Both the position numbers and the translations under genes were made by a program. Below are positions 3,201 to 54,819 of a stretch of 64,000 nucleotides of DNA, piece after piece. Origin of the DNA: Tubulanus polymorphus (lineage: Eukaryota > Nemertea > Palaeonemertea > Tubulaniformes > Tubulanidae); NCBI RefSeq assembly GCF_964204645.1, contig NC_134030.1:21767210-21831209 (forward strand), in the 5' to 3' direction. Positions within the stretch are counted from its first letter, which is position 1, and each line of letters opens with the position of its first letter. The notes beneath the pieces were generated by a model. The model saw only the letters and a list, made by a program, of their open reading frames with translations, was not told the DNA's origin and did no database searches.

Positions 3201-4541
3201 TTAAATGTTATATTTTTTCGATCGGTCAAAAAGGAAAAAATAAATATTCCGTGAAAAAATGTCGGAATTAAATCAACGCTGGTCGAAATAACATTTAATA
3301 AAAAATCGATTTTTTATTTAATTTTATAATTTTTCAATCAGCAAAAAAATAGGAAAATTTATTATGTCCCCAGGACGTTTCTGTAGAAAGCAGACGCTCT
3401 AAAAGAAATTACCAGTTGACAAATTGTAAATGATATTTTCTAGTTGTTTTTCGTGATTTTCTGTTTGAACAAAAACTTGTTGCATTGAATTTATTTTAAA
3501 TGTTTGAATAGATGAAAAAGGAAGCCTCGATGTTGCCGGATGGTGTGTTGTAATCGTGAATAAATTTCTTTTTTTCAGAAATTAAATTGAAAATCGCAGT
3601 TTTTAAATCTATCAAAGGTAAGAGATCTATGTAAGGATTGCATCAGAATCAGCAGGGTTTATTCCATCATTTTCATCAAAGCTCAATTTTTTCCAAGAAC
3701 TCAATTTCTCAATGTTTTCACGGTGAATCACTTGTAGAATTGTATGCTGGACGAGCTGAGAGATTTCTGAAAGAACTCGAAGAGAAACTGAAACAAGTGG
3801 AAAATGAAGAGAGTAAAAATGAGGAGGAATTGAACAGAATAATTCACAGTTCAGTTTGTCAGGCGTTTAAATATATCACTGATATGAATGAAAGTAAATA
3901 TCGATTTTGTATCTCAAATTATACACACATGTGGCAAAGTACATACACATAAAATGATTATGTTTACACATGTTACATGCACATGTGCACAAACACGTAA
4001 CATGTACATGTGTATTATACTCGAAATGTTCTACGCACAATGTATTGTTACATATTTCATTTAGAGTTAGATTATAAAACATGTTTATTGATGTAACAGT
4101 GATTTTCATCGCGATTCGTGTGAGAAGGTCTGAAGTAATGGCGGATGGGATATATCACTCACTGGTTTTCCCGAGCCTTAGAGTTCACTGGTACCAGAAT
4201 TCAGCCGTTCCAAAGAACTCTAAAAGACACTGGGGAAGAATTTATCAGAACTTTAAACTGATAGTAAAAGAGTTTATTTTACGAACGTCGTCTTCTCTAT
4301 AAGAGCATGCATGCATAGGACATTTTACAGAATGGCGCCCGAAACCGACATAAACCCACTCAGCCCCTCCTCACATTTCATGTGAATGTACGTACATGTT
4401 ACATGTGAACATGTTACATGTGAACACGTAATGAATTAATGTACTTGTAACATGCTCATGTAAATTAATGCACATGTAACATGTTGGTTCTCTGATAAAT
4501 TTCAGGAAATCTTATGGATAATAAAGTTGTAGGATATGGAG
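221..4541 (+). CDS. Gene A exons A1-A15
   Basis: Exons: 221-250, 331-381, 467-529, 967-1050, 1419-1466, 1554-1592, 1776-1793, 1871-1918, 2011-2064, 2240-2287, 2509-2580, 3020-3049, 3579-3617, 3738-3893, 4506-4541. All are phase 1 to phase 1. A7 (1776-1793) is only 18 nt. A14 (3738-3893, 156 nt) is the longest internal exon and encodes a charged, heptad-like helix (RFLKELEEKLKQ followed by a Glu/Asn-rich run), a plausible coiled coil. A1 and A2 are identical to their gene C partners; A4 and A10 carry several replacement changes. The introns over 300 bp here (531-966, 1051-1418, 2581-3019, 3050-3578) show no gene and no clear repeat; 3894-4505 holds ACATGT-rich DNA. Confidence 0.8.
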
Positions 4542-25105: not shown

Positions 25106-25109
25106 ATGA
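25092..25109 (+). promoter_or_regulatory. Possible uORF overlapping the gene C start codon
   Basis: A five-codon frame, ATG-AAT-GAA-CCA-AGA-TGA, ends on a TGA that overlaps the main ATG (ATGA). Gene E has the same arrangement at 62820-62837. It matters only if the transcript includes these bases; a tacttag acceptor directly upstream suggests that they may be part of a spliced 5' UTR. Confidence 0.45.
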
Positions 25110-25220
25110 AGAATCTATGGAGGAATCCGCAGAAGTGTTTAGTGATCTACGTGATTATACTGTTGAATCTCATGGCGAACAACAACAGCCCACAAGCGTT
25201 TAGAGTCAAGAGAAATACAG
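25106..25220 (+). CDS. Gene C signal-peptide exon C1
   Basis: It starts MKNLWRNPQKC, then a hydrophobic core (LVIYVIILLNLM) and a probable cleavage region near NNNSPQA, and ends in phase 1 before GTAAGA. Gene E has the same exon at 62834-62948 with only K2R and N25Y. The length of 38 codons is typical of a secretory leader. Confidence 0.8.
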
Positions 25221-28200
25221 GTAAGACAACGTGAAAGAACATATCATAGAGTTTATATGGAGAATGTATTACATAAGATGAAACTTATCACCAGACTTTG
25301 GAAACTTGTATTTGAAATATCTGGGACAAAATGATAGTAGCTGAATAGTCCACTTGAACTGATACATTTACCTCGAATGAAAACCCACAATCTCTCAAGT
25401 GTTTTACATTTTACCATTAAACATTTTAACTATTCAATAATTGTATTTTATCTTCTAAAACTCCATCTACACTTGATTCTTATACCCGGGTTATGCGTCT
25501 CCACTACGATGCTGGTTTTCCGCAAAACCTGGGTTTTAGAAACCGTATTGAAAAAGAAGGGTCCACTCCTTATTCAACCACGTTCGCGTAAAACTTTTAG
25601 AATTTTTACTAGAAGTGTAGAAAGTAGACCCGCGCAACGATTGAACTTAAAATTGAACTACAGATTGGTAGAAATCCCACAATAAAATCAGCGAAAGAAA
25701 TTGAAATCAGAATTCAGAATTCATTGTAAACGAGAATATATTTCGAGCAACGTTTCGGCTAAACACAACTATGAGCCAATCATCAGGCGTACCGATACAC
25801 GAGATATATTTAACAAGATATTTATACAGAAAATGAACTGAAGAATGAGTGATCGAAGTTAAATACAGAGTAAAGTTATTCAAAACATAGACAAGGAAAC
25901 AATAGTAGAAAGAGTTAAGCAACAGCAAACAGCAAACTAGGGGTAAAACGAGGAGGTAAATAAAACACAAAACCCGAAACTAAAACGAGGAGGTAAACCA
26001 CAGGGTAATCTAACAATCACAGAATACATCACAGGCTGTGTCTCAAAATCATAGATAATGCGTGTGAATATTAGATCTTAAAAACATCAAATCAGATTAT
26101 TGTTTATTTCTTGTCGAACCTCTTCAAACGGTGACAACTATCGGAAGACAATTTGCTTAAACAAGTCTGGGGCTCTAGTTCCTCTGAAGTCGGTTTAAGG
26201 TGAATGAAATTGAGATGTTAATTGGTCAATTCTGAACAATGGCTCTGACAGAAAGATTGCCATTTATTTCAGCACCTGATGGAGTTGTACTGGACAGTGT
26301 GAATGTATTACCGGGTACAAGAATATTACGTATATTGTGTATTTGATATTTCAGCACCTGATCTAGTTGTACTGGACAGCGTGAATGTATTACCGGGTAC
26401 AAGAATATTACGTATATTGTGTATTTGATATTTCAGCACCTGATGGAGTTGTACTGGACAGTGTGAATGTATTACCGGGTACAAGAATATTACGTATATT
26501 GTGTATTTGATATTTCAGCACCTGATCTAGTTGTACTGGACAGCGTGAATGTATTACCGGGTACAAGAATATTACGTATATTGTGTATTTGATATTTCAG
26601 CACCTGATGGAGTTGTACTGGACAGCGTGAATGTATTACCGGGTACAAGAATATTACGCATATGGTGTATTTGATATTTCAGCACCTGATGGAGTTGTAC
26701 TGGACAGTGTGAATGTATTACCGGGTACAAGAATATTACGTATATTGTGTATTTGATATTTCAGCACCTGATGGAGTTGTACTGGACAGTGTGAATGTAT
26801 TACCGGGTACAAGAATATTACGTATATTGTGTATTTGATATTTCAGCACCTGATGGAGTTGTACTGGACAGTGTGAATGTATTACCGGGTACAAATATGT
26901 TACTGTCGCAGGAAGGTAAAACTGTTAGTATTACCTGTAAACAGAGCAGCTCTGCAGCGACTGGTGTAGCATTCCAGCTACAAGTGAATAATGGACCAGA
27001 AGGGACCTGGATTGCATTACCTTCAGAATCAGCACCAGTTTGGGTTTTTCAGCCCGATGCTCGTAAAATGTATAAATGTGTGGCCATTAATTCAGCCGGA
27101 ATTAAAGAAAGTCAAATCTACCAATCAGATGTAATCAGTGAGTATGCATCACTTATCAAATAATGCTGGGAAAATAGAAAAAAAGTTTCCTGTGCACATG
27201 TTATATTTTTTCGTGCATATAACTTTTATTTCAGGTATAAAGATAAATGAAAACCCGTGTAAACTGCATGAATTCAAACCATCACTAACTTGTACTTGTA
27301 AAGCCACTAGTAAGATTGGTAATCCAATCATCAAAGTAAAATGGTATGCTGATGGATTTACTGAAGGTTCAACGGATATTGATCAGATTCCCGATCAAGG
27401 CGTAAATACTCCGGTGAAAGATGGAGTTATCAACAGGAATCAGATGCGGTTTAATTTAATGCTGTACGCAATATTGATTCAATGTCGGTTATGGAAGTAT
27501 AATGGGATAGAGTTACCGAAACAAAAACTTCAAGAACAAATACTACATCAAACTCCAATGAACGTTACGTGTAAGTTGGAGAATATTTTCATGAGAGATT
27601 TTTCATTCGATATCAGAGTGACAATAATACATGTTACATCGTTTATTCTATTGGTAACTGCCCATAGTTGGAGATTTAAGAGTTACTATTTCATAACGAC
27701 TGGTGATAATGCCTATGAAATTCTTTCGTTTTAATATTTGGTCCCAAGAAGGTATTTCGAATACTGAAGCGAATTGTTAATAATAACATTAAAAGGACTA
27801 GAATATGATTGTGCATGAATTTGCTTTTGAAATCGAACCTACTAGAAAACGATTTCACCTTCAATGATTAGGCTTAAGATTTTGAGCCCACATGGAAAAA
27901 TTGCAGCGAAATTGGTTAAAATGTTGACGTAAAAAGTTCGTTTCTGTAACAATTGTCGTCTTCGGGTATTCTTATGGCTATATCAGGGATTTTTAGTTTG
28001 TAATATGGGACAAAGCTTCTTGAACCGGGACAATAGGATCACGCACAACTCACCAGAACAAAGGATTCTTTTCATGAGTGCGATAGATACGCCACCTATC
28101 GTTGATATGTATTGTTGCAAAAACAAATAAACTATATTACAATATAATTATGTCGGGAGTTACACCGTTACATTTCCGTCGATTCAAATTTCGACGCCCT

Positions 28201-31200
28201 TGATAAACACACATTCCTCGGAGCGCAAGTAATATTTTACCATGTTTTATGGACGGACGTTTTCTCGATTTTGCACCGATCAGTGAAATTGAAGTGGATA
28301 AACATGATATCATCCAAAAATATATTTGCATCTTTATCTTTTAGATTTTCCCGATGAAATTGAAACACCAGATACTTTCACCGGAGAACCTGACATTAGA
28401 AATGAAGGAGATGTTGTAGAATATACTTGTAGAACAGTGATAGGAAGGCCCGATCCTACAGTGATATACCAACAGAAGAGAAGAGATTCTGAACGATGGC
28501 AGCCAATTCCTGATCCACAACCTCGTAAAGTACCTCTCAAAATGGGTTTAAAAGGTTTTGATACGACGTACAAGTTCAAAGCTGATTTCAAACTGCACAA
28601 TGGAACGTCATTTCGATGTGCTGTAAAGGAGAACCTTACGTTTCCAGAACCTCGACAATTTAATCCAATCATTGTTCATTGTAAGTAACAGTTTCTTTCT
28701 CGAATTCGAGAAATAAGTAATTTTCCCTGCAACAATACAGACCCCAGTGATAGTACAGACCTATCCACACATATAGTATGACACAATGTAACCATGCTAA
28801 GGAGGAACATGGCAGAATCTCATGATGTCATCAGGTTCAAATCCCTGCCGAGGGAGGAACGTGGCAGAATCTCATGATGTCATCAGGTTCAAATCCCTGC
28901 TAGGGAGGAACGTGGCAGAGTCTCACGATGTAATCAGGTTCGAATTCCTGCTGAGGGAGGATGTGTCTACTATGTGTCTACTGTGTTTGTACTGTGACAG
29001 AGTCTCACGATGTCATCAGGTTCGAATCCCTGCCGAGGATGATGGGTCTACTATGACAGGGCTTAAGAACTGTGCTAGGTTAGATACTAATGTTTCTTTG
29101 TTTTTCAATCAGATTTTGCTGCACCAGTTTACAAGAAATCCAGTGAAAATGAAACAAATGCAGCGTATATTGTAACAGTTAATAGTTACCCATTGACTCA
29201 ACAAGTTACATGTGACCCTCCAGCTGTCGTTCAAAAACTATCAAACTCTCAGTGGAATATAACGATACCTATCGTAAACAGTACCACAACTGACTATAGA
29301 GGGCGGTGTTTGGTTGATGGTATTAATGAAAGGGTTATTGATGTCGCTGGTTATCATCACGCCGGTCCAACTGATGAACCAGGTAAGATTCCGGGTCACG
29401 ACTGGATGAATTTTACATGAATTTGAAGATTCAAATGATTCAATTCCATGACATTATAAAACTCGAGGCCATCATCTCTTAACTCGAAATCATTTCTACA
29501 CAATCAAACAATTTACTTATGAAAGTCGTTATTTTCTAAATTGTCACAAAACCTATTAATATATTTCAAAGTCTCAATTTACTAAGTCATTTGTCATTAT
29601 TATTGGGTCTCATTTTACTAGGTGTAAGTCGTCATTCATTTAAAGCGTCACATACATACATATTACAAAAAAATAATTTTTGTATTTTACCTAAAGTGTA
29701 AATCATTTAGATTAGTCAGCACAGCGGAGGAGTCTCGTGACGTCATCAGATTTTAAATCCGTGCGCGATGACGTAATTCTCTGTGTCGTCAGAATTGAGC
29801 GTTTTCTATTATTATCTGTGAATTCATCACATTCAAATATTACACAATGATTTAGCATCTTTAACTTTCTATCTTGAGGCTGTTTGACCCAATCAAGGAA
29901 CGATTAATTTTCTCCCATTTTAAAAACAACTTATTTGCTTTATTCAGAGACTATTTGAGCTTTGAAATTAAGGAACAATTAATTTTTGTTTGACCTAGTT
30001 AATTATTCAATTAAATTGCTGTTACTTTTATCAATAGTTACAATGGAACTATTTCTAGCTTTATCTAATTCAATTCAATCGCATCACCGATTAGTTTGAA
30101 TTTCCGTTTCAGATGCAGGAAATGGAGGAATTGTGGCTGGTGTTGTAATCGGTATATTACTGATATTACTGATTCTAATAATACTGTTTATACTGTGGCG
30201 TCGTGGCTGCTGTAAGTTTTACATAAAACCATCAATAAATCTGAAAAACAATAATAAACAAACTGCAGAAATGAAATACTCTATTAGGGGTAGAAAACCT
30301 AATGATGAACTGGTGGAAATTGTTAGTTCTATAATATATCATATACAGAATGCTAGAAATCCAAAAGTAGTGAACACAGCTGGAAGAATTCAGGGGTCCC
30401 AAGGTGGCCAGATACAGTTCATTCTCAATTATCTGTTCAAATTTCATTCATGCAATTGAATTCAAGAATGTTTGGAACTTAGAAGAACAGAATGTTATCA
30501 TTTCTGGGATTCAGCACGGGTTGGGTCGTAGTTTCAGATGGCAGCAAACATGAAATGTGCTACGACCAAACATTCACCGATTCCATAACAATCATTTTGA
30601 TAGAAACCGCCGGCATAGGTTTTCTTAGCCTCCAGGAGAAGCTACTAAGTAACATCGTTCTCTTCACAAATAACGGTGTTTGAAAAAGTATCCATTTTAT
30701 AATGTTTAGCATCATTCAACTTTCAATCAATTTTCTAGACACAATACGCGCATTATTCAAACCAGAATTTAGATGCACGAGACGCATTAAAAATCTAAAG
30801 CCAGAATATGCATAATGTTTATTTATTTTCGTCTGACATCGATCACTTTCAGATCTGAATCAGTGCGGTCTAAATAAAATATCGTTTTTATATCTATTGT
30901 AAAATGCAGCATTAATTGAATTATCTAATGGCGAATGAATTACTCGTAGATGCACAGTCTTCGGTACAGGCTCGATACAAGTCTCTGCGGGGTCATCAAT
31001 CAACGTTGATAGGTTAAGATTTCTTGCCTACGTAGGTTCTGCATTTTCTCGTTGGGAAGTATCGTTAAGTTGTTGGGTGACGATAGTAATAAATTATCAC
31101 ATATGCCTACCGGGTATCGGTAATGAAAACTTGCGCCCGGTTCCTTGTCCCAGTTACCATTTATTGCCAACTAGAAGAAATTCCGTAAATCTCTGATTCC

Positions 31201-34200
31201 GAAAAATGACAGTACCGGTTTAAACTCGAAAAAGTTACGCAGTATCATTGGTTCAATTGTCTCATGGCATTAGTATCCATGACTATCTTTAGTGGGTGGC
31301 TCCATGAATATCCAAATCACACTGTTTCTTTATTGGGTTGATTTGTCAGGTGAATGTGCATCGTGTAAATAAACAGTATTTCTGTTTTCTAATTTACAGT
31401 ACCGTGTTTGGGTCCGAAATCTAAAGATGTGATTGAATTGTTGCGTTGGACAAGTGAAACCTGGTATGAAAAAGGTAAGATTCTCTCACATGATTTACTG
31501 CACATATTCTCAGATATCGGTTTGATAATTTTAGGTGTTGTTTTCTCTTTGTAGATCATGAGAATTGGGTGAAAACACGTGACCAACTGCAGCCGGGTAT
31601 TCATAGAATTATTAACCCTTTATTTCTATTACCTGTAGAATATCTTGCATGAATAGAGTTCATAGTTTTAGAAATCATCCACTAATCATCTGAAAGATAC
31701 ACAACTGATTTTGCTTCATTATCTAAACTGTAATTATCAATTTAAGTTTATGGTTAACAACGTAATTTCTTGAAGATTTCTTGAGAATTGTTTGATCAAT
31801 TGTGTTGATATTTCGTCTATATATGTTTTAACACACATCTGCAGTCTTTCTGGTGCATGCCTAGCGATCATTGTTCTTTAAAGAAATCAGCATTTCATGC
31901 ACATTTTCGAAGTCTATGGGAAATTTCAAAGATATTTGGCTCATTTTTATTGAGGTCTGAAGTGGACAAAACAACATGCTCCGTAAAAAGACATTGGCTT
32001 GATCGAAATCAAGATGACTAATTTTCGATTTTCGTTTTCAAAAATCAGTACTATTTGCACATCATATTTTGAGGTTTTCTAGAGAAATTTTAATAGATTC
32101 TTTAATCTATTTTTTTTAATGTTTGGTTTATACATGTATCTACCCTAGATGTATCAGCAGTTCTAAAAATGAATAGTTGGAATCAAGACTGGCGGCTATT
32201 GTTACTCGGCAGGGCGGTTAAAACGACCCTCTCCTTTTTTACCAGGTCTAGAGGCTTTAAAAGATGGTCGTTTCTCAATATTTGTTTATTATGGAAATCT
32301 TCTTTCTGACCAGAAACTAGTCCATATTCACTTACGTGGAAATCCTGGACTTCACTTGTAGCAAGTGAGGATCCACCAGGTGCAAGGAGGCAATTCCTTG
32401 CTATTTTTAGAGTCTGACCTTTTCGTGAGAAAGAAGAAAAAGCATGTGAAAATCCCTGATAATGTGTAGGCCTAAGCGTTGTTGTCGTCGTTAACCGGCG
32501 CTTTTTTCGGCAGTCCTCCAGTTCATGGTGTTTCATCGATAGTTCATTGATGTGTTTGGTTGAATGACTGGACTGGTTCCGGGTCAGGCGTATTGTCTGA
32601 TCGTGCCTAGAACGCGTCACCACGCATCTAATTTTAAAACGTTTTCCGCGGGAGGACGCCCACTAATTTAACCCCTCCCTCAAATCCTGGATCCGCCACG
32701 TAAGATGCGGCAATTGAGAATTCCCATTGAAAATCAACTATACACGAGAAACGTTTTTGGATGTCGTTTTTTCATGTTTATCTGTAGCTAATATTTGTGT
32801 TGTTTGTTTAACAGTTGAAACTGGAGACTTTGAGGTCATTGAAAGGTCATTAAGTCCAGGTATATATTTAATGGTTATTGTAATTTCATTTCAATAAAAC
32901 AATATAAACTCAGATAATTCAGTTATAAATCAACTACTTGTTCGTAACGTCGATGAATTCATTTAAACAATTAATTTATTGTCAATTTTTCTTTCTAGAA
33001 ATTGTTAGAATAATTGTCGATATTTATGGAACTAAGAATGATTGGGAGTTAACGAGGGATAAGGATAAACAAGGTAAGAGGAGTGATGACTCAGTTGCCA
33101 AGGTAAGAGCCAAACCGGCTGATTTGTTTGTTGCAACCCGGGGCCGGGCTTATAGACTGGTGTTAACTTTAAACCCGGGGGTTAATCTAATTAATTTTCA
33201 ATTGAGTTAACCCTCTGGTTAAAGATAATACCCGCCTATAAAACCGGGTCCTGCATACAATACTGTACCGGAATATAACACTTCCCCGGGCCTCCTATCT
33301 TCATCCAGCAGTAATTCAAACTGTTTGATGCTCAGTTTATTCAAATATTGAAAAAAATGCTTTCTATATTTCATTTCAGCAATAGCTATCAGAGAATTTC
33401 TGTTTGGACAGTTATCAAGTGATCAAAGTAAGTAATTGTTTACCTATAGTTTGTTTTAAGTTTATGTACGCATGGGATGTATGTAAACATGCGCATGTGA
33501 GTTATGTGAACATGCACATGTGAGTAATGTGTACATGTACATTTGATTGATACATAGTAAGTTGTGAGTTGGGTAAACATGTTCATGTAAGTTAACATGC
33601 ACATGTGATTAGTTTACGTGTTTTAAGTTAACACAAGTTTCATCAATGTTTATATTTTCAGGTATGTTAGATTTGGTGAAAGAAATTCTAAGTAAGTTTA
33701 CGAAACGACTCAATATTTCCTCTTCAACTCGAATCTTGGATTCAAATGTGTTTATAATTATCTATTGACAGGAAAATACGTGAGAATAAACGATTTAAAA
33801 ACGAAACTATCAAATGAGATCGGTAAGAGTTGATTGAATACAGTTATTGATGTATGAGTTTATTGATTATTATTCAACTGTCAACTCATTTTGTAAATGT
33901 ATTACAGATACATTACTGAACAAGAAGAGGTCAATAGATGGCGCTGATGCAGTTTACAATAGAGATGAAGGTACCGTTATTATTTACTGTTCAAATGAAA
34001 TATTCAGCTTCGCAGATAGAAATGTAACGAATTCTATTCAAGATGGCCGCATGGCAGCCTTTTGGCAATAATGAATAAACCTTATAAAAGCGACCAGTTT
34101 AAAATTTCATCTTAAAAATATCAGACTAGAGCTTCAGAAATACTCAAGTTACAACAAAATTATCAAATTTACAATTGTTATTTAAGAAATAAGATGTGAT

Positions 34201-43200: not shown

Positions 43201-46200
43201 AGATTTTCACTATTTTGATCTTTAAAGTGATTGTTAGATGTGTGTAGTGACGGGTACCGGCATCTGTGTGAACTGATGCAGACAATCACGCACGATTCAT
43301 TGGCTTCACAAGAGCAACAATCATTATGAGTTCAGTGATAACTTGTTATTCATAATTGCCGCCCCCATAAAACATTTTAATGCAATTTATTTCTCCAGAT
43401 ATTTTATACAGAAAAAAATATCACTAAAATAGAAGCCAGTTGTCAATATCATCACGTGGTGGACCTAAAACCTTAAGTAACACTTATCTGTTTATCAGAC
43501 AGTTGTAGTCAGCGCTTGCCTCTGATTTTGTGGAAACAATGAATAATAGTGACGTCGAATTACAAGTCACACGAGTTTGTTTAAGTCAGTGATTTTCTAT
43601 ATTGATAGATTCTAAACTACATGAATTAGCTGATAAAGAGTTTGAAGATAAGAAAGGTACTGTACACATTACAAAGTGTGAAATTCAACATCTTTCATGT
43701 CTTAAATCTTATTGATGTTTTATGATCAATGATGTTTATTACAGTCATTAGGGAACAATCATTCGAACGTATAAAGACACCGGAAGAAATATTGCCTCTA
43801 AAACTGAAAATACCGGCACAACTCGGCACTGGTAAGTGACTACACTGAAAAACTGCATGTTTGAATTGGAATTCGATACAGTAAACTTTGCCTCGAATAA
43901 ACTGTTAATATTTCACTGAGTTGAGAATCAGGTTAATCCTTTTATCACAAAACTTTCAGTATTTTCAAAATTTTAAGATTTTATCTAAAATTTTTGTAGA
44001 TTTTGATTCAGCTGGACGAGATGCAGTTATTCTGCCGGATCAAGCAGGTATTGTATAAGTTAAGTCTGTAAAAAAAACTTAAGATAACCCGTTTAATGTC
44101 ACTGATCTCTTAACGCCAACATATTTCAGGGAACAAATGCCGCAAATCTAAATTCAATGGAAATACCATTCTTTATAAAGCCACATATTTCATCGGTGCC
44201 AACAGTGGTATTATGAAAGACTTTTTCTGTGATAACAAAATTTTCAGTTTTTTAAGAGCACTAGCCTGAAATATATTCTGCAACTGATCTTTGTCCTTGA
44301 AAAGACGATAAATTCTTCTAAGTTCTTGTAACGAATCCTTAAACTGCTCTTTATTAATACCAGAAATCGCTCTTCCGTCATATACCTAATTGTGAGGTTA
44401 AGGCCCTGTTTATGGTGTTCTAACCCATGGTTTACTGGTCTTTTGAATGTCCAGGAAGTGAATGTCTTTTAAAGCGACAAAAGTTTTAAATTCAGAAACC
44501 ACACTCAATGAATGTTGTGTCTATGTTTGCTGTTTTTATGTGAATTTCAGTGAAATATTTCAAGGATGAATTCATTATTGCAATACAATCTGATGAATCA
44601 TTGAAAACTGCTACTCGAACTGCTTTAGATAACAGTAAGTTACGTCTACAGTAAACTACATTTATATCTACAGTAAACTACATTTACATCCATAGTAAAC
44701 TACATTTACATCTACAGTAAACTACATTTGTGTACATCTGTAAGACTACATTTATCTACAAAATCAAAAATTAGATACAGTTATTCACTAAGATTTTCGA
44801 TTCTTGAAATTTTTTTCTATTCTTAAGCATCAAGCGAAATCAACAATTTGCTGAAGAAAGAAAACTGGAAAGGTAAATTGTTTGATGAAATGTGTGTAAA
44901 ATGTTTATTTTTACGAATAAAAAAAATGAATATTTTAGGAACCACAAATGACTGGTTTATTTTAATCACTTCTATGATTTCAAATTAACTGCTGATTTTA
45001 CTGTGTAAAACAATTTAAAGATTTTCTTCTATTTTCAGTTAATGGAATTTATAATGATGTGAAATCCAGAATACAATCAATGTCTACAGGTTTGTATTTC
45101 AACGATTCACTATCAATTCACCCATTAAAATGTAACCGTATTCTCCCCCGGGCAAGCGCCCTTTTTGTGACCCATATCATATCATTTCATCACATCATAC
45201 ACTTGTATAACGGTTTATTCCAATTTCGCCGCTTATTTATTCCAATTTGGCCTTTTTCCCAATCAACCCCTTTTCCCATTTTGCCCCTTTCCTATTTCGC
45301 CCTTTGTTCACATTTTCACCCCGTTTTTGTACATTTTCAAAGAAGCTTAGTTGAATTTAAGCTGCATTGTAACATGATTATGTTAATTGTGCCTGTGCCT
45401 AAATAACTTCAGTCATTTAGATTATGTGAATTTCAATCAAAAACAGAAAGGTACAAGGTGGAAAAGGGGCAAAAAAAAGATTGGCGGGGCTGAAAAAATG
45501 GTAAGGGTGAAATTGAAAACGAGTGAGATGGGAAGGGGCTAAATGGAAAAGGGGTCAACTAGGAAGGGAAGACATCTTGTATATCATGTCAACACGCATG
45601 CACGCACGTCGCACGCACGCACGCACGCACACAATCATATTGCGTTACGTCATTTTTGCTTGTAAAATGTAATTTCGAAGTTGATTAACTTCATTTTATT
45701 TTTCATCACGGAACGATTTTCATTGCTGAATTTACGTTCTTTTTCTATTTGTGATTTCAGAGGAATTAAAGAAACGAAAGGAACGAAAAATCGTAGCTTA
45801 TAGAAGTGAGTAAAATGCGTGTTTGATTTATTCAACAATTCCACAGTTTTGAGTTACCCTAAACCTATTAACACTAACACTAGACTCCCTTCCCCTAACA
45901 CTAACTAGACTTCTAAGCTGTCCACTATTGAGATGAACAAAATTCAAAGAAATAGAAAATTAGGATATTTTTTTCTCAAAATCGCTTCACATCGCAAAAA
46001 TACCTCAAACTCTTGACAAAAAACATAGACCAATATTACATACAATCTTGAAAATAAAGTATAGAATTAAAGCACACTGAATAATCATATAATGAATAAT
46101 AATGATAATTTCAAAAAAAATAACAGAATTAAACATCAGCAGAAATAAATACTCATGAAAAAGAATAAATCTATAACTTTTTTTTGAAAGATGATAAAAG

Positions 46201-49200
46201 CGTTTAGTCGCAATGATATTCTACAAATGAATAAGATTTAAAGAAATTTAGATTTAAATGAAAACAAGTGAAAAGTGAACTGTATGAATTAACTTGTTTA
46301 TATATACTCAATGTTTATATATGAATTATTGTTGTTTTCTGTTTTTCAGTAAAAGATGAAATAGCGAGTAAGTACTGATAACATCTTCCACATTAGAGTC
46401 TAGATAAATAGATATTTGTCATGTCCTGTTTTGAATAATGGTTCTCATATAGCTCCTAAATCAGTTCAGAGTACTTGAAATGCTGCACGAAATGCTGCCT
46501 TAGAAAGGAAACATTTCAGGGGCTTCCCACATTCATCAATGGATGAAATTGCCCGTGGAGGCTTCGGGCGGATCTAGCCTAGGTTTCTGTGAGTACCGCT
46601 CAACTGTGGAAGGGTAAGCCCAATCATAACCCAATTACGGTACTCCCTCAGAAAATCGTGAAGTTTTCTAGGAAATATTTATGAAAGCAATAAGAAGGTT
46701 ACCATTTTCGATTATTCGAATTAACCATTTCTATTACTTCTACCAGATTACTAGCCTGGAATATAACATACATGGTGTACAACTCAAACCCTGATCAAAT
46801 TCAAATCAACTCATCGATAATAACTCGCTTGCCAGGGGTAATTTCTTCCTGTTAAAACGAGATTTTCACGAGGAACGTGAAAAATAGAAGGGTTTTTCTA
46901 CAAACTGAGTACCGTTCAAGGCGGTAGTAGGTTACGGTAAGCTGGATCCACCCCTGGGCGGCTTGTTCCACAAATTTGGGGTACTACATGTACTATTACT
47001 TCTTCATGGCTCGTAGTATTTGACTCGCAGTGGCTTTCGACTTAAATGAATAAATCTGTGGAGATGAAAAAATTGTCCTGATTGATCTTCGATATCCCGG
47101 TTTATTTATAAATCAGTACAATCAATATTCATTCTCTGGTTTATCGACTTGATTTGTAGATGTGAAAGGAGAACATGTTTCCCTCTCCCTGCAGTAATCT
47201 ATTGTGTTTATTCTGTTTCAGTGAAAAACATCAAACTAATTATTGCAAACAGAATCCCAATATATAAAGGTGAATACATTGTGTAGACTGTTAAGTTATA
47301 CTAGCAAAGAACCAGCCGTCCTGAACGGGTTTTATCGTGATTGAGTTTGAGTTGATTATTTTACTTCTCATGTGGAATACACAGTTATTTCGCATAAAGT
47401 CGACTGTATTTTGTAGGAGGATATTGTGACGCTATAGCAACATAAATAGTTTACATCAGTTGACATCATGATAGTTTATAAATATGTCTTTGCTCCTCAT
47501 TAGGTACATTTTAACATTTATAATTACAGGCACGCTAGTGACTGTTTTAGAAGAGAAATGTAAAAAGGCTTCCAGTTGGACATTCAAGAACTGGGTTTAT
47601 GATATATCACTCGTGTGTAAGTTCACAGTGAAATTAGTTTGTGATTTATAATAGAATTCTATTGTATAAAAACTTGTCTATTGTTTATTACATATAGTGT
47701 CTGAACTCAGTGAATTAACCAGTAAAACTTTAAAGACAAACACAGGTTATTGGAAACAAGTCAAAGAATGTTTCGGTGAATTATAAATTCTCGTTTCACT
47801 GAATATTAAGCTTTTTATTAAATAATTCAATCTAAATTTTGAATAATAATTGTTTCTGTTTGAATAGGAGATGAAATTGACAGGGAAACAAATAAAACTG
47901 AACTGACAGAAATAGGTGAATATAAAAAAAGATTCAGATAAACAAAATCATTGAGTTCATTAAAGATGAAATTAATCAGATCTCCAGAGGCATCAGTTTT
48001 GATTCAGAGTAATGTAAGATAAAAGTGTTTGAAAGACGTCGTCACTGTTTGATTGTTCACAGTTTGTATCTATGTGAAAATTTAATTTGTTTATAGTTGA
48101 TGAGTGTTTGCGTGAATGCACTAAAACAATGCGTGATAAATGGAGTTCTGGTGAGTACCCCTCATCAGTACTTCTCGTGAGTACATCTCATGAGTACCAA
48201 TTATGAGTACCTCTTTTAAGTACTTCTCATGAGTGAGTACCATATTCAAATAACTACCAGGCATCTTGGGTACGTCAAGTACAGGACTCAAATACAAATC
48301 GGAAATTGAGTACCCGCGAGTAACATATAGAAACCAGAAGTTTAGTGAGTTTAGTAATTTAACACAGATTAACAGTCCGGTACCTGAATAAAGACGTTTC
48401 CAGTTTCAAGGCGCCAGTGAGTTTCTAGTGAAATGGCGGTGCGCAGTGGGAGACCCCTTTGGCGTGTAATCTCGAACTCAAGCGGTTACAAATTAGTCGT
48501 CAGGAAAGATATTCAAAGAATTTTAATGCAGGCCCAAACTGCAAATAACCCTCTTTAACCTCTGCGAAAACTGGAAATATAGCTTTAAGAGATACTTAGA
48601 TATTTTAAAATTAATAAATATCGCGATTTCTTTTACGCGCGGTTAAGATATGCGGTCCTTGGTTCAACATTGTCACTGTTCTCAATGTTTGCGTTCAAAA
48701 CATCCAAAAATCATGTATAAATGCTGTATAACTTAAGTTCATCGAACAAGGGACTGCAGAACTATATGATATTCAATCTAAAGTTATGTTTGAAAAATGA
48801 GCGCAAATTATCGCAACAATGGGGACCTCGAGGGACCGCCACAAAATGACGCCTAGAAACTGGAAACCCTTTATTATGACATTTAAATGATGCAATTCAT
48901 TGATCAAGTTAAACTAGCAGTAAACTGGACCAGTCTGAATGACTAGTTTTCTTTAAGCTTTTATTTCATGTTTTAGTATTTTTAGACGATTTCAAGACCA
49001 ACAAGATGATTGTAGATTCAGGTAAATATGGAAATTCATTCACAGGTAACAGATAAGACTCAATCTTGAATTGAAATAAACTGGTCCCTAAATCTTCAAA
49101 CTGTTTAATAAAGTTTTCTAATTTAAATATCCATCTTTGAAATAAATATATAGCGAGTTTAGCCCGCCGCACACGGCAAAACATTTGTTTCGCCGAAACA

Positions 49201-52200
49201 GAAAACACGTTTTTCAGAAAACGTTTTTTGCTCGTGAAGATCGTTTTTCAGTTCGGCGTTTTGTGTTTTGCCTCCCCCGCACACGGCATGACAAAAAACA
49301 TCGAAAACGTTTTTGCACGAGGAAAAAACGTTTTTTGGGTGCCGTCTGCGTTGGGCTTTATTATTCAACTTAAAATCTGTCTCTTGCATGTGCAAGTCAC
49401 GGAGTAAACGTTCTAATTTCTTAGAGAATGTCACAGAGTTAACCATTAATTGTTTTTTCCAAATACAAATGTTTACGACAAACCGCAGTCTTTAAAAATC
49501 TTAATAAATAACATCCAGGGGCTCTTAAACCTATCCTTAACATACAGGTTGAAATATATTTTATAGAGAATGTTGCATTAAGTTTAGTTTGTTTGCACGA
49601 AATCATTTTAACCCACAAGTTAATGATTCAACGCTTTACAATTGTAGGAAAAATGCCAGGGGTGTAAAAGTACAATAGTGAATATAAGTACACGCTTGGG
49701 GTAATATAAATTATCAAATCAGCCACGTTTTAGGAAATTTAAAGAGGGGGAACTTAGGGTACTAAAATACAACCAAATACAGCCAAATACAAACAAATCA
49801 ACCAAATACAACAAATAAAACCAAATACAACCAAATACAATAATTAGTTGGAAATAGAAAGAGATCATTGATAAGATGACGGATAATTAATGCATTCAAC
49901 TTGAATCTATGTAAATAACTGAATTTTTTCATAAGATGGCCTTTTTCCTCCTACACAATAAGTGGCATTTTTACCGGTGGCATTTTTCCTATGTCGCAAA
50001 ATTTTTAATAGTTTCTAAATGTATCTCAATTCGAAGTGGTTTCGCGAAGTTCAGTAAACAGAGTGCAATCAAAGAGAAAATGTAATTCATCCCCAAAACA
50101 TTGCAAATTGGGCACATTCTTTCATTTCTAGGTATATGGAAATTATGTGAATATGTCTATCGGGAATAAATCTATCCAGGAAAATTATGTCCCAGGGAAT
50201 AAACGCCCTCTGAAAAAATATCCCTTTTCTAAGAAAGGACAAAATGTCCCAGTCTATCATTACCGGTACTTATTTGGTAATTAAGAAAATTTCATATCAA
50301 AATAACACGAGAGTTCAAACTTGTTAATTATGTAAATTTCAAACTAAACATCAAAAGAAAGAATTCATAAGTGATCATACGAATTATAAAATTTTAGTAT
50401 CAGTTCGTTTTGCTTATGAGAATTGTTGTCAACTCAGTAAGAAATCAAAACAATTATTTCATTCAGGGTAATCCTGATAATGAATATCTCAGTGTATCAG
50501 CAAATGACTTCACTTTAATTCAAATTCGTAGAATTCGATAGATGATTCCATTGAGCTTAGATTGTTTACCAGATACAGTTTTACACCAAAAATTAATCAT
50601 TCTACGCTTTACCTCAATGAACAAAGGATAACGCGCCCTAACTCTGCTAACACCGGTAAATTATGCGAATACTTCGTCACTATCATTAGAATTTTGCATA
50701 AATACATATTTTCTAATGAGTCTAAATTTTCATATCCGCAGACCTTGCAACCATACATGGCAACAGGGGCAACGCACATATCAAATAATTTAAACATTAC
50801 GTCGATTGGAAGTTTCAGGCGCCTACCTTTTTGAATAATCGAAAACATAGCTCTCATAGCTTTATCGTAAAGATATTTTCTTGCTTTTGCAAAACTTCCG
50901 TTCCAGTTAAATGTAACTCAGAGATACACATTATCTTCAACTTCAATCTCCAATTCCTGATTACCGAACATAAATTTCTGAATTTGCTTAATTCTGGTTT
51001 TACTTCGCACAAACAAAGACTAATATTTTCGTTTTATTGACGTTTATCCCGAGTTCAGATTTGCTATAAACGATTAAGTTGGGTTGCCACGGTCATTTCA
51101 AAAAGTCCTAAATATCATTCAAAAATAAAAAAAAAGGAATAGGCCACAGGTTTTCTTGTCCTTCTGTCTTGTCTATAATAATTTACGCATATGTCACTAA
51201 TTTGCAATTTTTCCTTCAGCCCAGTACTGCCCCCTGGTGACTGTATGAGATGTAACAATTCCGTTATTTGTATTGTAGAAGAGATTTTTGAAGCGATAAA
51301 AGGCGAATATTTTCAAACTCCCGAATTTAGAAGTAAGTTTCCAATAAAATCAGAACCTGTTTTAACAACCAGAACTCAAATATTAATATCTGTATGTATT
51401 GTATTATTATTTATAGGATCAGTTGTGACTGCAGTGAATGAAGCTATCCAGAATTCAGGTATTTGTTAAATATTCTTCAAAAGTTCGAATTCCGTGTTTG
51501 AATTGAGCTCAGTTTGACTGAAGGCGCTTTCTTTTTCAAAATGTAAACTTATATTTTACAGATAGATCACAACACGGCAAAACACCAAACTATGAAGCTG
51601 CAGGTTTGTAAAACTATAATTTCTGTAAATGAATTTGACTTGATGTGGCTGCTACACAGGACCGAATATCATAGATTAGGGGGCAAAATATTCCCCTGGA
51701 CCCAGTTTTATAGACTGGTATTATCTTTAACCCGGGAGTTAACTTAATTGAAATTGAATCAAGTTAGCCCCCCGGATTAAAGTTAATACCAGTCTATAAA
51801 ACCGACCCCTTGGCCCTGGAAACTTTTTGAAAATTGTCAGTAGTTAACATAGTTTCTCAATGTTGCTATGGTGGTTGTCAGCCTGTTTGAGGATTTTCCC
51901 CACGAGGATCATTCATTTATTACGTATGCAAAAAATTCAGAAAAAGCCTCGAGTAAGCTGATAATAGTTAGATCGAGTCCACTATGTAGAAAAAGAGTGG
52001 ATGAAAATGTAGTCACGTGATAAAATTCATCCGGAGCAGAATTGAATTTTAAAAATCATTAAGGTGCGTACAATACGCATTATTATTTACCCCTCCCCCT
52101 TTTGTTCACAAAAGTATGCAATTTAATAAGACCCCCTTTGTACAATTTGATTTTTGAGTTTAACCCCCTCCCTACCCAAAATGCGTACCTAATAATTGGG

Positions 52201-53658
52201 TGACCCCTTAAAAGGTAACTTTGAACCCGCCCTATGAAACTAGGCCCATGATGATGACCACAAAGATGAGGTAATTTTCAGTTGCTTTCCCTTAAGGATT
52301 TTATTCTATTATTTCAGTGAAGTGGATAGCTGATAAAATGAAAGGTAAATTGACTGGTAATAATACTCAATTTCGTGATGAGTTTGTGTTGATGTTTACA
52401 AAAGAATTCTAATTTCAGGTTTCACGGTTAAACCATCTGAAACTTATGGTATGTAATATAATTGTTATATACAGTTGATTATAACGGTCGCTGTCATCGT
52501 TGTTGTCACTGTCACTGTTCACTCAACACGAACATTTATCAGAGAACAAATTTGTAAAATCAAACTCAAATTCAATGAAAATACCATTTATAAATCGCCA
52601 AAATTCATTATGAAGTCATATTTTTCATTGGTCCCAATAGTGGCTTGACTATATTTATACATGTATCTTGTGTGGATGCCTCATCTGTCAGACAACTGGG
52701 CGGGAAATTGAGTAACAATTCATTAAAAAATCCTGACGTTTTTTTCAGAGAGTAATGAATTTGCTAGACTTGTACGAGCAAAAGGTAATGAATGAATTAT
52801 GTGTGTTAAAATTGATGTTATCGATTATGATAATGTTTTATGATGCTATACGTAATTTAATTTCTGTTTCAGTAATTGAAAAATCAAGAAATTTGATGGA
52901 TGAGATACGTGCTATAACAAATAAAAGTAATCAATATTGACTTCAATAAACATTTTACTGACTCGATAATTCCATATTCATGGATTCATGTTTCCACATA
53001 TATATATATATATAACGTGTCTTGTGGTCCCCAAACCGGAAAATCAGGAATTTCAAAATAATGTTCTTTAAATTCATTTTGCGCTTCAATTTTCTTCGGC
53101 GATCTTTTTTTGAAAATCTCCTTCATCCACGAATCACCAGTAAATGTTGACGTCACTGTAGTGTATGATGTTATCTGCTCAATTTCCATCTGGAAAATGA
53201 AAAATCACCCATGAAATACTCGGGTTTATTGACTTCATGTAATTGTGAGAACTATCCATAAATTCTGGAGCGGGTGATATATAGTTGTATAAAAACAGTT
53301 ACAAGCTGAACACATCTAAAACAGAGCAAACTCTAGGGGCTACTGATAAAGTATTGTGAATATAAGTTAAAGTTGACGGGTATCTACACTTAGGGAGTGT
53401 GCAGTTGTATTTGGTGTTTGGTTTATATTGTACATATATCTATTTATAGAAGCTCCTCGTAAAGAAACTGCTGGTGATCGTAGATCAGGTATTAACCGAC
53501 CAGTGAGTGATGATGGTGGGTCACCTGAAGGTGGTTTAGTGAAATATGAAGATGAACCTAAAGGTGCCTGTAGTCAGAGTGCTGCTGATGATAGTCACAC
53601 AAGTGACACCGCATCGAGTGGTGATCGTGAGCGGGGTGATATCGGTACACAAGTCTAG
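25106..53658 (+). CDS. Gene C: long-type Ig receptor with a 57-exon intracellular tail
   Basis: Complete predicted gene: signal-peptide exon 25106-25220, four Ig-like exons, transmembrane exon 30113-30211 and 57 tail exons ending at TAG 53656-53658. I sum 63 exons and 4,572 nt, an exact multiple of 3 (1,523 residues), with no in-frame stop. Every intron is phase 1 and every internal exon a multiple of 3, so all are removable cassettes. The extracellular part is about 450 residues and the tail about 1,040, with no domain that I recognise. Alternatives: tail exons may be mutually exclusive or mostly skipped, so the full-length mRNA may be rare; or the tail may be a separate transcript, though no signal peptide or start exon is seen before 31400. 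The family resembles invertebrate IgSF recognition receptors in layout only. Confidence 0.75.
25707..25970 (-). repeat. Repeat segment with minus-strand ORF in gene C intron 1
   Basis: The 87-residue minus-strand frame is identical in gene E intron 1 (63452-63715). It carries a gcctgatgattggctcatag plus cgaaacgttgctcg phrase that reminds me of dispersed retroelement termini, but I cannot assign a family. It is probably a mobile-element fragment rather than a gene. In gene C the two copies part after about 26000; the rest of the intron to 26270 is unremarkable. Confidence 0.4.
26273..26846 (+). repeat. 82-bp tandem array duplicating the Ig1 splice acceptor
   Basis: Seven extra copies of the exon C2 acceptor and first exon bases lie upstream of the real exon, starting at 26273, 26355, 26437, 26519, 26601, 26683 and 26765; the true exon is 26847. 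Each unit reads tttcag, then APDGVVLDSVNVLPG, then ends in TGA (APDLVV in units 2 and 4). The period of 82 is not a multiple of 3, so entry at a decoy acceptor hits the TGA. A GTACAA after the 42nd base could act as a donor and make each unit a symmetric 42-nt exon, but the 40-nt gap between neighbours is too short for a usual intron. Confidence 0.9.
26847..27137 (+). CDS. Gene C Ig-like domain 1 (exon C2)
   Basis: A 291-nt phase 1 exon. Cysteines in SITCKQSS and YKCVAINSAG give the Ig disulphide pair; W in TWIALP and VWVFQP. The KMYKCVAINSAG motif is typical of the F strand of I-set or C2-like domains. Confidence 0.85.
27235..27570 (+). CDS. Gene C Ig-like domain 2 (exon C3)
   Basis: A 336-nt phase 1 exon. 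LTCTCKATS holds the B-strand Cys, KVKWYADG the strand C Trp and LIQCRLWKYNG the second Cys. It continues past the fold to NVT before the donor GTAAGT. The open frame runs through the donor, but the following intron encodes no Ig sequence. Confidence 0.8.
28345..28680 (+). CDS. Gene C Ig-like domain 3 (exon C4), homologous to gene B
   Basis: A 336-nt phase 1 exon. EYTCRTV and FRCAVKEN hold the Cys pair. QQKRRDSERWQPIPD and FKADFKLHNGT closely match the single Ig domain of genes B and D, which ties the two receptor types into one family. An N-glycosylation site is at NGT. The flanking intron 27571-28344 shows no gene. Confidence 0.85.
28798..29040 (+). repeat. Tandem tRNA B-box-like repeat in intron C4-C5
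   Basis: Four degenerate units of about 52-60 bp, each with catgatgtcatcaggttc followed by aaatccctgc, like the B-box and T-arm end of a tRNA-derived SINE. A further decayed unit lies near 29725-29770. A short open frame across it is a by-product. Confidence 0.65.
29113..29382 (+). CDS. Gene C Ig-like or membrane-proximal domain 4 (exon C5)
   Basis: A 270-nt phase 1 exon. QQVTCDPP and RGRCLVDG give a Cys pair; DYRGRCLV resembles the Ig F strand. N-glycosylation sites at NIT and NST. It is shorter than the other Ig exons, so the fold call is less sure. The intron 29383-30112 has no gene. Confidence 0.7.
30113..30211 (+). CDS. Gene C transmembrane exon C6
   Basis: It encodes DAGNGGIVAGVV, then an unbroken Ile/Leu helix and WRRGC. 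The basic residues after the helix place the following exons in the cytoplasm. It ends in phase 1 before GTAAGT. If the intron is retained, the frame stays open to 30459 and adds about 80 residues. Confidence 0.85.
31400..33427 (+). CDS. Gene C membrane-proximal tail exons C7-C11
   Basis: Exons: 31400-31474, 31555-31596, 32815-32859, 32999-33073, 33380-33427. C7 encodes LPCLGPKSKDVIELLRW, C10 IVRIIVDIYGTKNDWEL, C11 AIREFLFGQL. All are phase 1, with regular AG/GT. Their gene A partners lie before the window. The intron 30212-31399 is gene-free; 31597-32814 holds an unassigned minus-strand frame and a dispersed repeat fragment. Confidence 0.7.
32183..32623 (-). other. Unassigned 146-codon minus-strand frame in intron C8-C9
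   Basis: An open minus-strand frame with a basic, Ser/Thr-rich product (TRSRHDQTIRLTRNQSSHS and on). I see no known motif, signal peptide or splice structure. A ctggatccgcca word at about 32687 suggests mobile-element DNA nearby. It is most likely part of an insertion; there is no second copy in the window to test conservation. Confidence 0.25.
33141..33251. mobile_element. Short foldback element in intron C10-C11
   Basis: Same family as 13371-13482: gggcttatagactggtgtta at the left, and reverse-complement matching cccgcctataaaaccgggtc at the right. Confidence 0.65.
33662..37208 (+). CDS. Gene C exons C12-C26 (partners of A1-A15)
   Basis: Exons: 33662-33691, 33772-33822, 33908-33970, 34279-34362, 34635-34682, 34765-34803, 34963-34980, 35065-35112, 35205-35258, 35412-35459, 36010-36078, 36627-36665, 36817-36972, 37173-37208; C23 at 36456 is dead (listed separately). 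C22 is one codon shorter than A11. C25 carries the heptad-like helix FQKELKEKLKQEENEER. An ACATGT-rich tract fills 37001-37155. The intron 35460-36009 holds a duplicated stretch of about 300 bp (35520 and 35820 regions share gtggaacaattggcaacgtt). Confidence 0.8.
36456..36484 (+). pseudogene. Dead tail exon C23 (partner of A12)
   Basis: The acceptor and ISRA-type coding start are kept (gtatctatgaaataagccg), but the A12 donor ttttag/gtaaga is replaced by ctatccacgtgattt. The only nearby GT would give a 29-nt exon and a frameshift. Skipping costs nothing to the frame because neighbours are phase 1. Confidence 0.65.
37284..42917 (+). CDS. Gene C exons C27-C41 (15-exon block, first copy)
   Basis: Exons: 37284-37301, 37426-37473, 37874-37939, 38072-38119, 38614-38697, 38959-39003, 39088-39138, 39458-39493, 39753-39770, 39979-40026, 40864-40953, 41035-41112, 41203-41250, 42021-42074, 42882-42917. 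C27 and C35 are 18 nt. This copy is more diverged from gene A than the second copy, and its introns carry a 27-bp minisatellite and a LINE insertion not found in the other two. Confidence 0.8.
37530..37592 (-). mobile_element. tRNA-derived SINE head fragment
   Basis: The minus strand reads ccatggtctaatggttagc, an A-box-like tRNA 5' part, and ends near a weak gatctagggta. Only the head is recognisable. Confidence 0.45.
40090..40765. repeat. 27-bp minisatellite, about 25 units, intron C36-C37
   Basis: The unit is ggtcgactggtactgagtaa plus gggtgaa; the variants gaa/ggc and act/att/agt alternate. The period is a multiple of 3 and lacks stops, so both strands read open (the + strand as SKGEGRLVL repeats). 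It is intronic: gene A and the second C block have just one partial unit (aggtcgactgtatttt) at this place, and the exon at 40864 follows a normal acceptor. Confidence 0.9.
41270..41765 (-). pseudogene. LINE remnants in intron C39-C40
   Basis: The minus strand reads CQKCDLEAVGDEYHFLLVCP near 41650-41735 and GAKFWNSLPEKLKYLDS near 41300-41375. Both are typical C-terminal pieces of non-LTR retrotransposon ORF2. It is present only in this block, so it inserted after the block duplication or was lost elsewhere. Confidence 0.7.
42944..43080. mobile_element. Weak foldback element in intron C41-C42
   Basis: Ends gggccggttctatagt and, reversed, ggccggctccataatc; the interior has paired agacgatttc-like words. 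It sits at the junction of the two 15-exon blocks. Confidence 0.45.
43153..49021 (+). CDS. Gene C exons C42-C56 (15-exon block, second copy)
   Basis: Exons: 43153-43170, 43609-43656, 43745-43831, 44000-44047, 44551-44634, 44828-44872, 45039-45089, 45761-45805, 46350-46367, 47222-47269, 47530-47616, 47698-47775, 47868-47915, 48097-48150, 48986-49021. C42 replaces VSPEEI with AGPEEI. C49 has a 9-nt insertion (EELKKRKER). From C47 on, the introns are close to gene A (hAT-like element 46564-46956, foldback 45131-45622), so this copy is orthologous to A's block there. C51 differs from A25 at 6 of 16 residues. Confidence 0.8.
46564..46956. mobile_element. hAT-like non-autonomous element, gene C copy
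   Basis: Partner of 8268-8662; the right end ggatccacccctg is intact, the left end has lost its cag. Confidence 0.55.
49162..49356. mobile_element. Foldback MITE-like element, gene C copy
   Basis: Partner of 10888-11082, with the same gcccgccgcacacggca end. Confidence 0.6.
49990..51085 (-). pseudogene. LINE reverse transcriptase remnant, gene C copy
   Basis: Partner of 11690-12760. The frame here keeps the piece MYGCKVCGYENLDSL through SHNLPVLAELGR more intact than gene A, plus CPICN..GDELHFLFDC near 50105. An aaccaaataca repeat lies just outside at about 49765-49845. Confidence 0.75.
51279..52926 (+). CDS. Gene C exons C57-C63 (partners of A31-A37)
   Basis: Exons: 51279-51332, 51417-51458, 51562-51603, 52318-52344, 52419-52448, 52749-52784, 52873-52926. 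C57 encodes EEIFEAIKGEYFQTPEFR. C61 is one codon shorter than A35. Flanking introns are unusually similar to gene A while the exons differ. A foldback element lies at 51698-51809. The homologue of the A38-A39 pair is missing after C63. Confidence 0.8.
51698..51809. mobile_element. Short foldback element, gene C copy
   Basis: Partner of 13371-13482; arms tatagactggtat and ataccagtctata. Confidence 0.65.
53450..53658 (+). CDS. Gene C terminal coding exon C64
   Basis: Entered in phase 1 after ctatttatag; encodes 69 residues with VKYEDEPKGACSQ and AADDSHTSDT, ending at TAG 53656-53658. It begins differently from A40 (APRKETAGD against LSRRYETAG) because 17 bp including a new acceptor stand before it. 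Confidence 0.85.
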
Positions 53659-53985: not shown

Positions 53986-54819
53986 ATATTTATCTTTGTT
54001 ATTCGGTTGTATGTAATTTCTGCGCTATTTGATTACTGTAGATCATTGATTGATTATTGCTGAAACGATTAATTGTAATAACATTAGTTAATCAAATAAA
54101 TATATTTTCTGCTTTTATCTCTCATAAAAAACTGATGTCTCGTTTTTCCGCGTCGTATCTGGTTTTTTTCACTAGCGAGAAATCTTCTCTTTGTTTTGCT
54201 GAAATCTGTGAGGCTCACATTTGATTGTTTGACTTTTATCAGTCAAAATACTGAAATGTGCTAAAATATACAGTGTAACTGAAGTAGATGAAATACAGTG
54301 CAACTGAATGATTGCAGTATTGTATTGTACCGTAGTTGTAACTCTATCGAGCAGAAATAAATTGTAAACGAAATTTCTTTTTGCTAAATCATCAGCGGTT
54401 GTTCTTGGGGAATATTAGGCCTACATTGTAGTCAAACTTACGCTGTATAACTGTATTATGATACAATGTAACTGGTTTACTGTTTTACTATATATAAAAT
54501 ATGTTTTAAGTTGAAACTGTAAATATGCATTGCTGATTGATTTGATAAGTTACTGCATTACTGATTGGTTTGATTGATCATTGAAAACTGTGATTAGTTT
54601 TATTTCATTTAATTGAAAAATTGAAAAAAATTTTGTAAAAACGTGACATTTAATGAAACCATTGATGCGGTTTATAAGATCAGCTACACGCGGACTCCTG
54701 GTAAAACTTTGTGCCGTGGTTTTGCTAGAAATTGCTGATAATGTAACGTGCTAATTTTATTCGCTTGAATAAAAGAATTTATCTTTATAAATAAAGTCAT
54801 TTATTTCTTTTTTATCAAC

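Follow-up and report, generated by a model that had tools for sequence, protein, structure and literature searches.

We found that LOC141906744 (gene B) of Tubulanus polymorphus, a marine palaeonemertean ribbon worm, belongs, judging from its sequence, to a membrane Ig-NLR family, in which it stands out by lacking NACHT and having expanded modules, and that it sits in a tandem array of immune-receptor-like genes. It seems reasonably likely that this membrane receptor descends from an Ig-TM-module-NACHT ancestor, that it lost NACHT, and that its modules act as assembly surfaces that tune NACHT-bearing relatives. The window, that is, the whole 64,000-nt stretch analyzed here, corresponds to C6:21767210-21831209 in the 267.8-Mb genome, with a G+C content of 32-38% per 4-kb block. 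Within it, gene B lies on the + strand at 25106-53658 in 63 exons: six for the ectodomain and transmembrane (TM) segment, and 57 (T1-T57) for the tail. Self-BLAST of the window also detected an upstream paralogue, represented by its 3' part (gene A, 1-17565), and the start of a downstream one (gene C, from 62770). The features are as follows.

221..16557, + strand: upstream paralogue A, only its 3' tail in the window; 653 of 659 spliced residues match LOC141907917 (P0009), the last two called exons excluded
25106..25220, + strand: exon 1 of gene B, start codon and hydrophobic signal-like start, ending in phase 1; matches the NCBI model
26847..27137, + strand: exon 2, Ig-like domain A (IgA), phase 1-1; Ig_2 at E 0.01 in 7 of the 14 scanned family members
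27235..27570, + strand: exon 3, Ig-like domain B (IgB), from the exon chain and the NCBI match
28345..28680, + strand: exon 4, Ig-like domain C (IgC); C2-set_2 at E 0.01 in 5 of the 14 scanned family members
29113..29382, + strand: exon 5, Ig-like domain D (IgD), from the exon chain and the NCBI match; used as a genome-search marker
30113..30211, + strand: exon 6, TM helix (hydropathy peak, residues 459-477) followed by WRRGC
31400..34682, + strand: block U0, T1-T10 (31400-31474, 31555-31596, 32815-32859, 32999-33073, 33380-33427, 33662-33691, 33772-33822, 33908-33970, 34279-34362, 34635-34682)
34765..36972, + strand: block U1, T11-T18 (34765-34803, 34963-34980, 35065-35112, 35205-35258, 35412-35459, 36010-36078, 36627-36665, 36817-36972), T18 being the genome marker exon
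37173..39138, + strand: block U2, T19-T26 (37173-37208, 37284-37301, 37426-37473, 37874-37939, 38072-38119, 38614-38697, 38959-39003, 39088-39138), missing as a block from P0024 and P0015
39458..42074, + strand: block U3, T27-T33 (39458-39493, 39753-39770, 39979-40026, 40864-40953, 41035-41112, 41203-41250, 42021-42074)
42882..45089, + strand: block U4, T34-T41, close duplicate of U2 (42882-42917, 43153-43170, 43609-43656, 43745-43831, 44000-44047, 44551-44634, 44828-44872, 45039-45089)
45761..48150, + strand: block U5, T42-T48, close duplicate of U3 (45761-45805, 46350-46367, 47222-47269, 47530-47616, 47698-47775, 47868-47915, 48097-48150)
48977..52926, + strand: block U6, T49-T56 (48977-49021, 51279-51332, 51417-51458, 51562-51603, 52318-52344, 52419-52448, 52749-52784, 52873-52926), the most confidently modelled block (in the relative P0014)
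53450..53658, + strand: exon T57, the Ser/Gly/Asp-rich terminus with the stop codon
62834..62948, + strand: first exon of downstream paralogue C

The exon chain was obtained by a splice-site scan, dynamic programming on trained scores for splice sites and codons, and hand curation. Of 79 exons proposed, 17 were removed by eye (five copies of a repeat at the start of the IgA exon and 12 low-scoring calls); the exons at 30113 and 36757 were re-cut, exon 1 was added, and the last exon was lengthened to its stop. When the T49 acceptor is set to 48977 instead of 48986, the translation equals the 1526-aa NCBI product of LOC141906744 letter for letter, and since this single 9-nt shift suffices, the curated chain is backed by an independent model. 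Curation and the NCBI prediction pipeline agree down to five 18-nt exons, which strongly supports the exon structure at the level of gene models. Two of the 12 low-scoring calls, weak exon-like stretches at 48285-48344 and 50055-50081 with counterparts in A at 10011-10070 and 11723-11749, were omitted from both the curated and the NCBI models. The first-pass annotation is thus confirmed in that gene B is real: the Ig ectodomain and the small-exon tail that it placed in one gene are annotated as one gene, with one TM segment and Ig domains in the relatives, and the curated CDS (4572 nt, a multiple of 3) is open throughout to one stop, as it had stated. Its claim that all 57 tail exons have AG/GT borders and lengths divisible by 3 holds for 56 of them, the 209-nt stop exon having neither a GT border nor such a length; it overlooked both the link to NACHT and the tandem arrangement.

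Because the scan itself demanded AG/GT borders, an open frame and a length divisible by 3, these traits are not proven by the chain; the tests are instead the resampling, strand and phase controls, the NCBI match, and a frame-free DNA alignment with gene A. The + strand yielded 41 strong candidates for symmetric 1-1 exons between 31300 and 53700, whereas 20 Markov resamples averaged 2.6 (sd 1.2). The minus strand contained none, and the other eight + strand phase classes had 2 to 10 each.

Gene B has the features of an immunoglobulin-superfamily (IgSF) membrane receptor: an Ig-fold ectodomain, assigned through homologous relatives, a signal peptide predicted by eye from the hydrophobic start, and a single hydropathy peak over threshold (residues 459-477). 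A Pfam scan of the gene B protein listed no Ig family; in relatives, Ig families scored above the Pfam cut-off in P0011 (C2-set_2) and P0023 (I-set, Ig_2 and C2-set_2). The AlphaFold model of the relative P0016 contains strands at a mean pLDDT of 34.6. Through an 82-bp tandem repeat (7.7 copies, 26265-26894), the IgA exon has its 3' splice acceptor and opening codons in multiple copies, and the NCBI model takes the last of these acceptors; on C9, about ten similar 82-bp steps span ~303195-303990. Read-through at the TM-exon donor (30212-30458) is open for 82 codons, and that after T2 (31596) for 18 codons. The end of P0016, ..QPGIYRIINPLFL, resembles the T2 read-through GIHRIINPLFL, and short-tail forms through intron retention are possible on these sequence grounds. 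A transcript ending soon after the TM exon had been named beforehand as an outcome that would speak against the long tail; a short tail does occur, as the separate protein model P0016, which is no evidence against gene B.

The tail exons measure 18-209 nt (median 48), with 12 of 57 at 36 nt or less and 37 at 51 nt or less, and the 56 internal ones are all symmetric phase 1 with lengths in multiples of 3. The lengths 36/39-18-48 follow one another in three blocks, none a close duplicate of another, a pattern that only 2 of 200000 permutations reached in a post hoc test. On exon lengths alone, this suggests that the blocks are old internal duplicates, which profile comparison does not confirm. 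With hhalign, clear matches between blocks were U2-U4 and U3-U5, the close duplicates. U4 also matched N, one 60-aa stretch of P0015 (E 1.5e-8, probability 94.5), and U2-N gave no corresponding match; U1-U3 reached E 8e-4 at a probability of 9.7, and with shifted block borders the best values were E 0.01 (V1-V3) and E 0.013 (V4-V7). We therefore dropped an ancient repeat defined by sequence profile, as hhalign offered no confirmation of it beyond the close duplicates. AlphaFold, which the first-pass annotation had recommended for the tail, gave module models with a mean pLDDT of 41.9, in which the last block alone was mostly confident. Foldseek returned no match at E 1e-3, and the analysis established no known interaction fold for the modules; U6 bears a weak likeness to a KIX domain, to be taken as a tentative lead. 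A 27-bp minisatellite of 25 copies (40082-40765) lies in the T29-T30 intron.

We then consider the genomic setting. The IgD exon has 29 genome matches, 28 on C6 (four of them only 51-52% identical) and one on C9, and T18 has 18, of which 16 lie on C6, one on C9 and one on C19 (all 18 candidates scored). In the main array, at 21.687-22.093 Mb of C6, 12 IgD exons lie 25-43 kb apart, all on the + strand, with T18 downstream at 11 of the 12 loci. The remaining IgD, at 22067718, would fit the short-tailed P0016. Between the genes, the spacer at 18016-25039 is repeated at 54650-61646 with 95.6% identity. It holds a second small receptor-like gene (19722-23036, with a copy within 54650-61646) that has a signal-like start, a single Ig exon (20314-20634) with roughly 50% likeness to IgC, and a TM-like stretch near 22200-22280. 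The tail of this spacer gene includes 42-nt repeats bearing tyrosine motifs such as YMDM, YIDM and YVNI. As ten copies of the spacer gene at 93% or higher were found in the C6 array, the array looks like alternating pairs of tyrosine-tailed and module-tailed receptors.

Protein searches with the tail and the ectodomain, in which the best 7999 candidates by shared words were scored, returned 16 and 17 proteins, respectively, and a search with the N-terminal part of P0015 (E up to 0.1) returned 20; all were from T. polymorphus. P0015 carries modules ahead of a NACHT domain (Pfam E 8e-17), and P0017, P0023, P0024 and P0025 combine an Ig ectodomain homologous to that of gene B with TM and NACHT. 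P0024 combines all parts, namely Ig, TM, modules and NACHT. At its locus on the minus strand of C6, the TM, module and NACHT exons follow in order, with an IgD exon just upstream; NACHT is encoded in a single long exon with a phase-1 acceptor, and most module exons likewise have phase-1 borders; the exact-match method left a few ends blurred. Similarly, a putative + strand locus on C9 presents a signal exon, IgA-IgD, TM, module pieces and NACHT (320167-323010) with a phase-1 acceptor. This order was assembled from tblastn matches, of which some extend into introns and contain stops. IgD and NACHT also lie close together on one strand, with no T18 between them, at 18.35, 18.44 and 22.31 Mb of C6. 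The family also includes Ig-TM-NACHT loci and short-tailed loci. NACHT exons related to that of P0024 gave at least 24 matches on C6, C8, C9, C19, C32 and C56 among the 20 of 363 candidates scored, an abundance that probably reflects a large NLR-type expansion.

Gene B itself is neither an NLR/STAND protein nor an Ig-TM-NACHT protein of the AjNLRC4 kind, as it is without NACHT, whereas four annotated relatives have Ig, TM and NACHT. No NACHT appeared in the domain listing of its protein, and NACHT queries found nothing better than E 3 in the 64-kb window. In a midpoint-rooted U1 tree, which did not include P0010, the two NACHT-bearing copies grouped apart from the 13 NACHT-less ones (support 0.978). 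The IgC-D tree, with weak nodes, did not separate NACHT-bearing from NACHT-less genes, and in the NACHT tree the Ig-less P0019 paired with P0017 (support 1.0).

The tail could be a duplicated set of phase-1 exons that drifts neutrally, a long helical spacer under little constraint with no combinatorial or signalling role, a reading that seems improbable to us. In its favor, A and B, which pair at 37 tail exons (every B exon type within A's range is present in A), differ by 0.093 substitutions per site in exons and 0.095 in introns (24 introns of up to 900 nt, differing by no more than 60 nt and lying between consecutive pairs), with dN 0.101 and dS 0.095 in the tail (dN > dS in 64% of bootstraps); the 36/39-18-48 motif, too, points to old internal duplication. 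Nevertheless, in a frame-free DNA alignment of 36 internal A-B exon pairs, all six gaps were multiples of 3 and no stop occurred, with aligned AG in 35 pairs (one had moved) and aligned GT in 36, while 10 of 49 A-B intron gaps were divisible by 3. The exception in the free alignment was A's last exon, with a 1-nt gap, another acceptor and stops in B's frame. This alignment was preferred as frame evidence because the scan also demands suitable lengths and open frames in A; the scan-derived counts (all 8 length changes in frame, 180 substitutions without a stop, GT in 36 of 36) were set aside as biased. Drift is also at odds with the duplicated blocks within B (dN 0.185, dS 0.109; dN > dS in 98% of bootstraps) and with the uneven mean identity among 12 paralogues, which is 0.86 in U0 and 0.89 in U1 against 0.79, 0.78 and 0.69 in U2, U3 and U6, the ectodomain being at 0.86 (66 pairs; 55 for U3 and 45 for U6 once gapped pairs were dropped). 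A versus B in block 1 gave dN 0.160 and dS 0.130 (dN > dS in 83%). Amino acids thus change about as fast as introns while the frame is kept, so the tail is either diversifying or weakly constrained. In addition, A-B intron divergence is patchy, from 0.00 to 0.34 (1-17565 versus 33442-54636), a mosaic suggesting gene conversion between array members.

Another reading keeps the variation within one gene, whose symmetric exons would yield very many intracellular variants by exon skipping, as has been proposed for the microexon genes of schistosomes; this was the interpretation of the first-pass annotation, and we consider it possible, though on the unlikely side. It agrees with the symmetric phase of all 56 internal tail exons, with the label 'isoform X2' on 11 of the 14 module-tail proteins (P0001-P0014) in the source, and with the two in-frame acceptors of T49 (48977 and 48986), one a candidate second acceptor. 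The gene B model, however, has no isoform label, and exon differences between paralogues can be germline. Whole exons do appear lost or duplicated between paralogous gene models, from which germline and splicing origins can mostly not be separated. When 16 related proteins were tiled with A and B exon peptides, 652 of 730 neighbouring tiles abutted at exactly one split-codon residue, a somewhat favourable figure since the tiling score rewards that spacing; the long gaps (55 of 730) include chance matches of 18-nt exons outside the tail. By this tiling of gene models, T3 is missing from P0011, P0012, P0013 and P0024, P0008 has a six-exon gap, P0002 has a long block doubled, and P0003 and P0014 have single exons doubled. 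Tiling replaced a plain pairwise alignment, in which 10 of 33 gaps fell at junctions against 7% by chance, because repeats render the pairwise gap test ambiguous, and the latter was dropped. One difference is germline: exon x16b of A (3020-3049) has lost its aligned donor in B. Finally, the Ig receptor, the tail gene and the NLR could be separate genes fused by prediction. The gene models are indeed predictions, and P0015 sits on a 179-kb contig, but IgD is followed by T18 on one strand at nearly all main-array loci, and this order continues into NACHT, through a phase-1 acceptor, at two loci on different contigs. We consider such an artefact very improbable.

We return to descent from an Ig-TM-module-NACHT receptor, a membrane-tethered NLR, as the simplest history. 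The gene B array would have shed the NACHT exon while its modules expanded, a loss made painless by phase-1 borders: because phase-1 introns link the exons all the way from the ectodomain over TM and modules to NACHT, loss of any exon run is frame-neutral. The direction, NACHT lost and not gained, draws on the two full-length loci, P0024 and C9, and is not proved by them. The ectodomain may bind a ligand, and clustering would draw the tails together, where modules could pair as assembly surfaces with the same modules in NACHT-bearing relatives. In animal NLRs, partners are usually recruited by the region that precedes NACHT, so a membrane-bound copy without NACHT may be a co-receptor, decoy or tuner that modulates or competes with NACHT signalling. 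Symmetric exons would let array members, and possibly isoforms, vary the length and content of the tail without a frameshift. We infer this function of the tail from its architecture, and a tail dN/dS near 1 also fits weak constraint. A bolder version, to which we give little credence, is that the array supplies NACHT-less partners whose tails differ from gene to gene and with splicing, and that these differences encode which tails co-assemble and whether NACHT relatives fire.

In the gene B family, an array of IgSF receptors and NLR-type signalling are tied together, and the family is a concrete case in which phase-1 borders, from the Ig exons through the NACHT exon, allow whole intracellular parts to be lost, duplicated and rejoined. 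It makes two questions testable, namely whether a protostome has membrane-bound NLRs and whether symmetric small exons serve intracellular receptor diversity. We found no paper on a nemertean Ig-module-NACHT family in the open-access PMC literature, the scope of our search.

Long runs of small in-frame exons in one gene are familiar from structural proteins, such as the titin PEVK and collagen exon arrays, and we know of no link between those arrays and NACHT or IgSF immune receptors. Schistosome microexon genes (MEGs) are reported to devote ~80% of the coding region to short symmetric exons of 6-36 bp and to encode secreted or exposed proteins (PMC5825161). Gene B shares with them runs of short symmetric exons that are skippable in frame, but falls outside this MEG exon definition, as only 12 of 57 tail exons are 36 nt or shorter, and its exons encode a predicted cytoplasmic region. 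By architecture, the nearest published receptors are the Ig-TM-NACHT proteins of the sea cucumber Apostichopus japonicus. AjNLRC4, reported as a membrane receptor for bacteria, is described with extracellular Ig, two TM segments, intracellular NACHT and no LRR, and Ig with NACHT in one protein was previously unreported to the knowledge of its authors (PMC8699970). AjNLR-new, from the same animal, has the same combination of Ig, TM and NACHT as the relatives of gene B, with a topology reported as opposite, NACHT outside and Ig inside; the consulted parts of that article contain no mention of a microexon tail (PMC13133943). Together, these echinoderm receptors indicate that membrane NLRs can work in bacterial phagocytosis (PMC8699970, PMC13133943). 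Ig-TM-NACHT is thus common to AjNLRC4 and the relatives of gene B as a likeness of architecture, whereas gene B is without NACHT, and in P0024 and at the C9 locus a long stretch encoded by microexons separates TM from NACHT.
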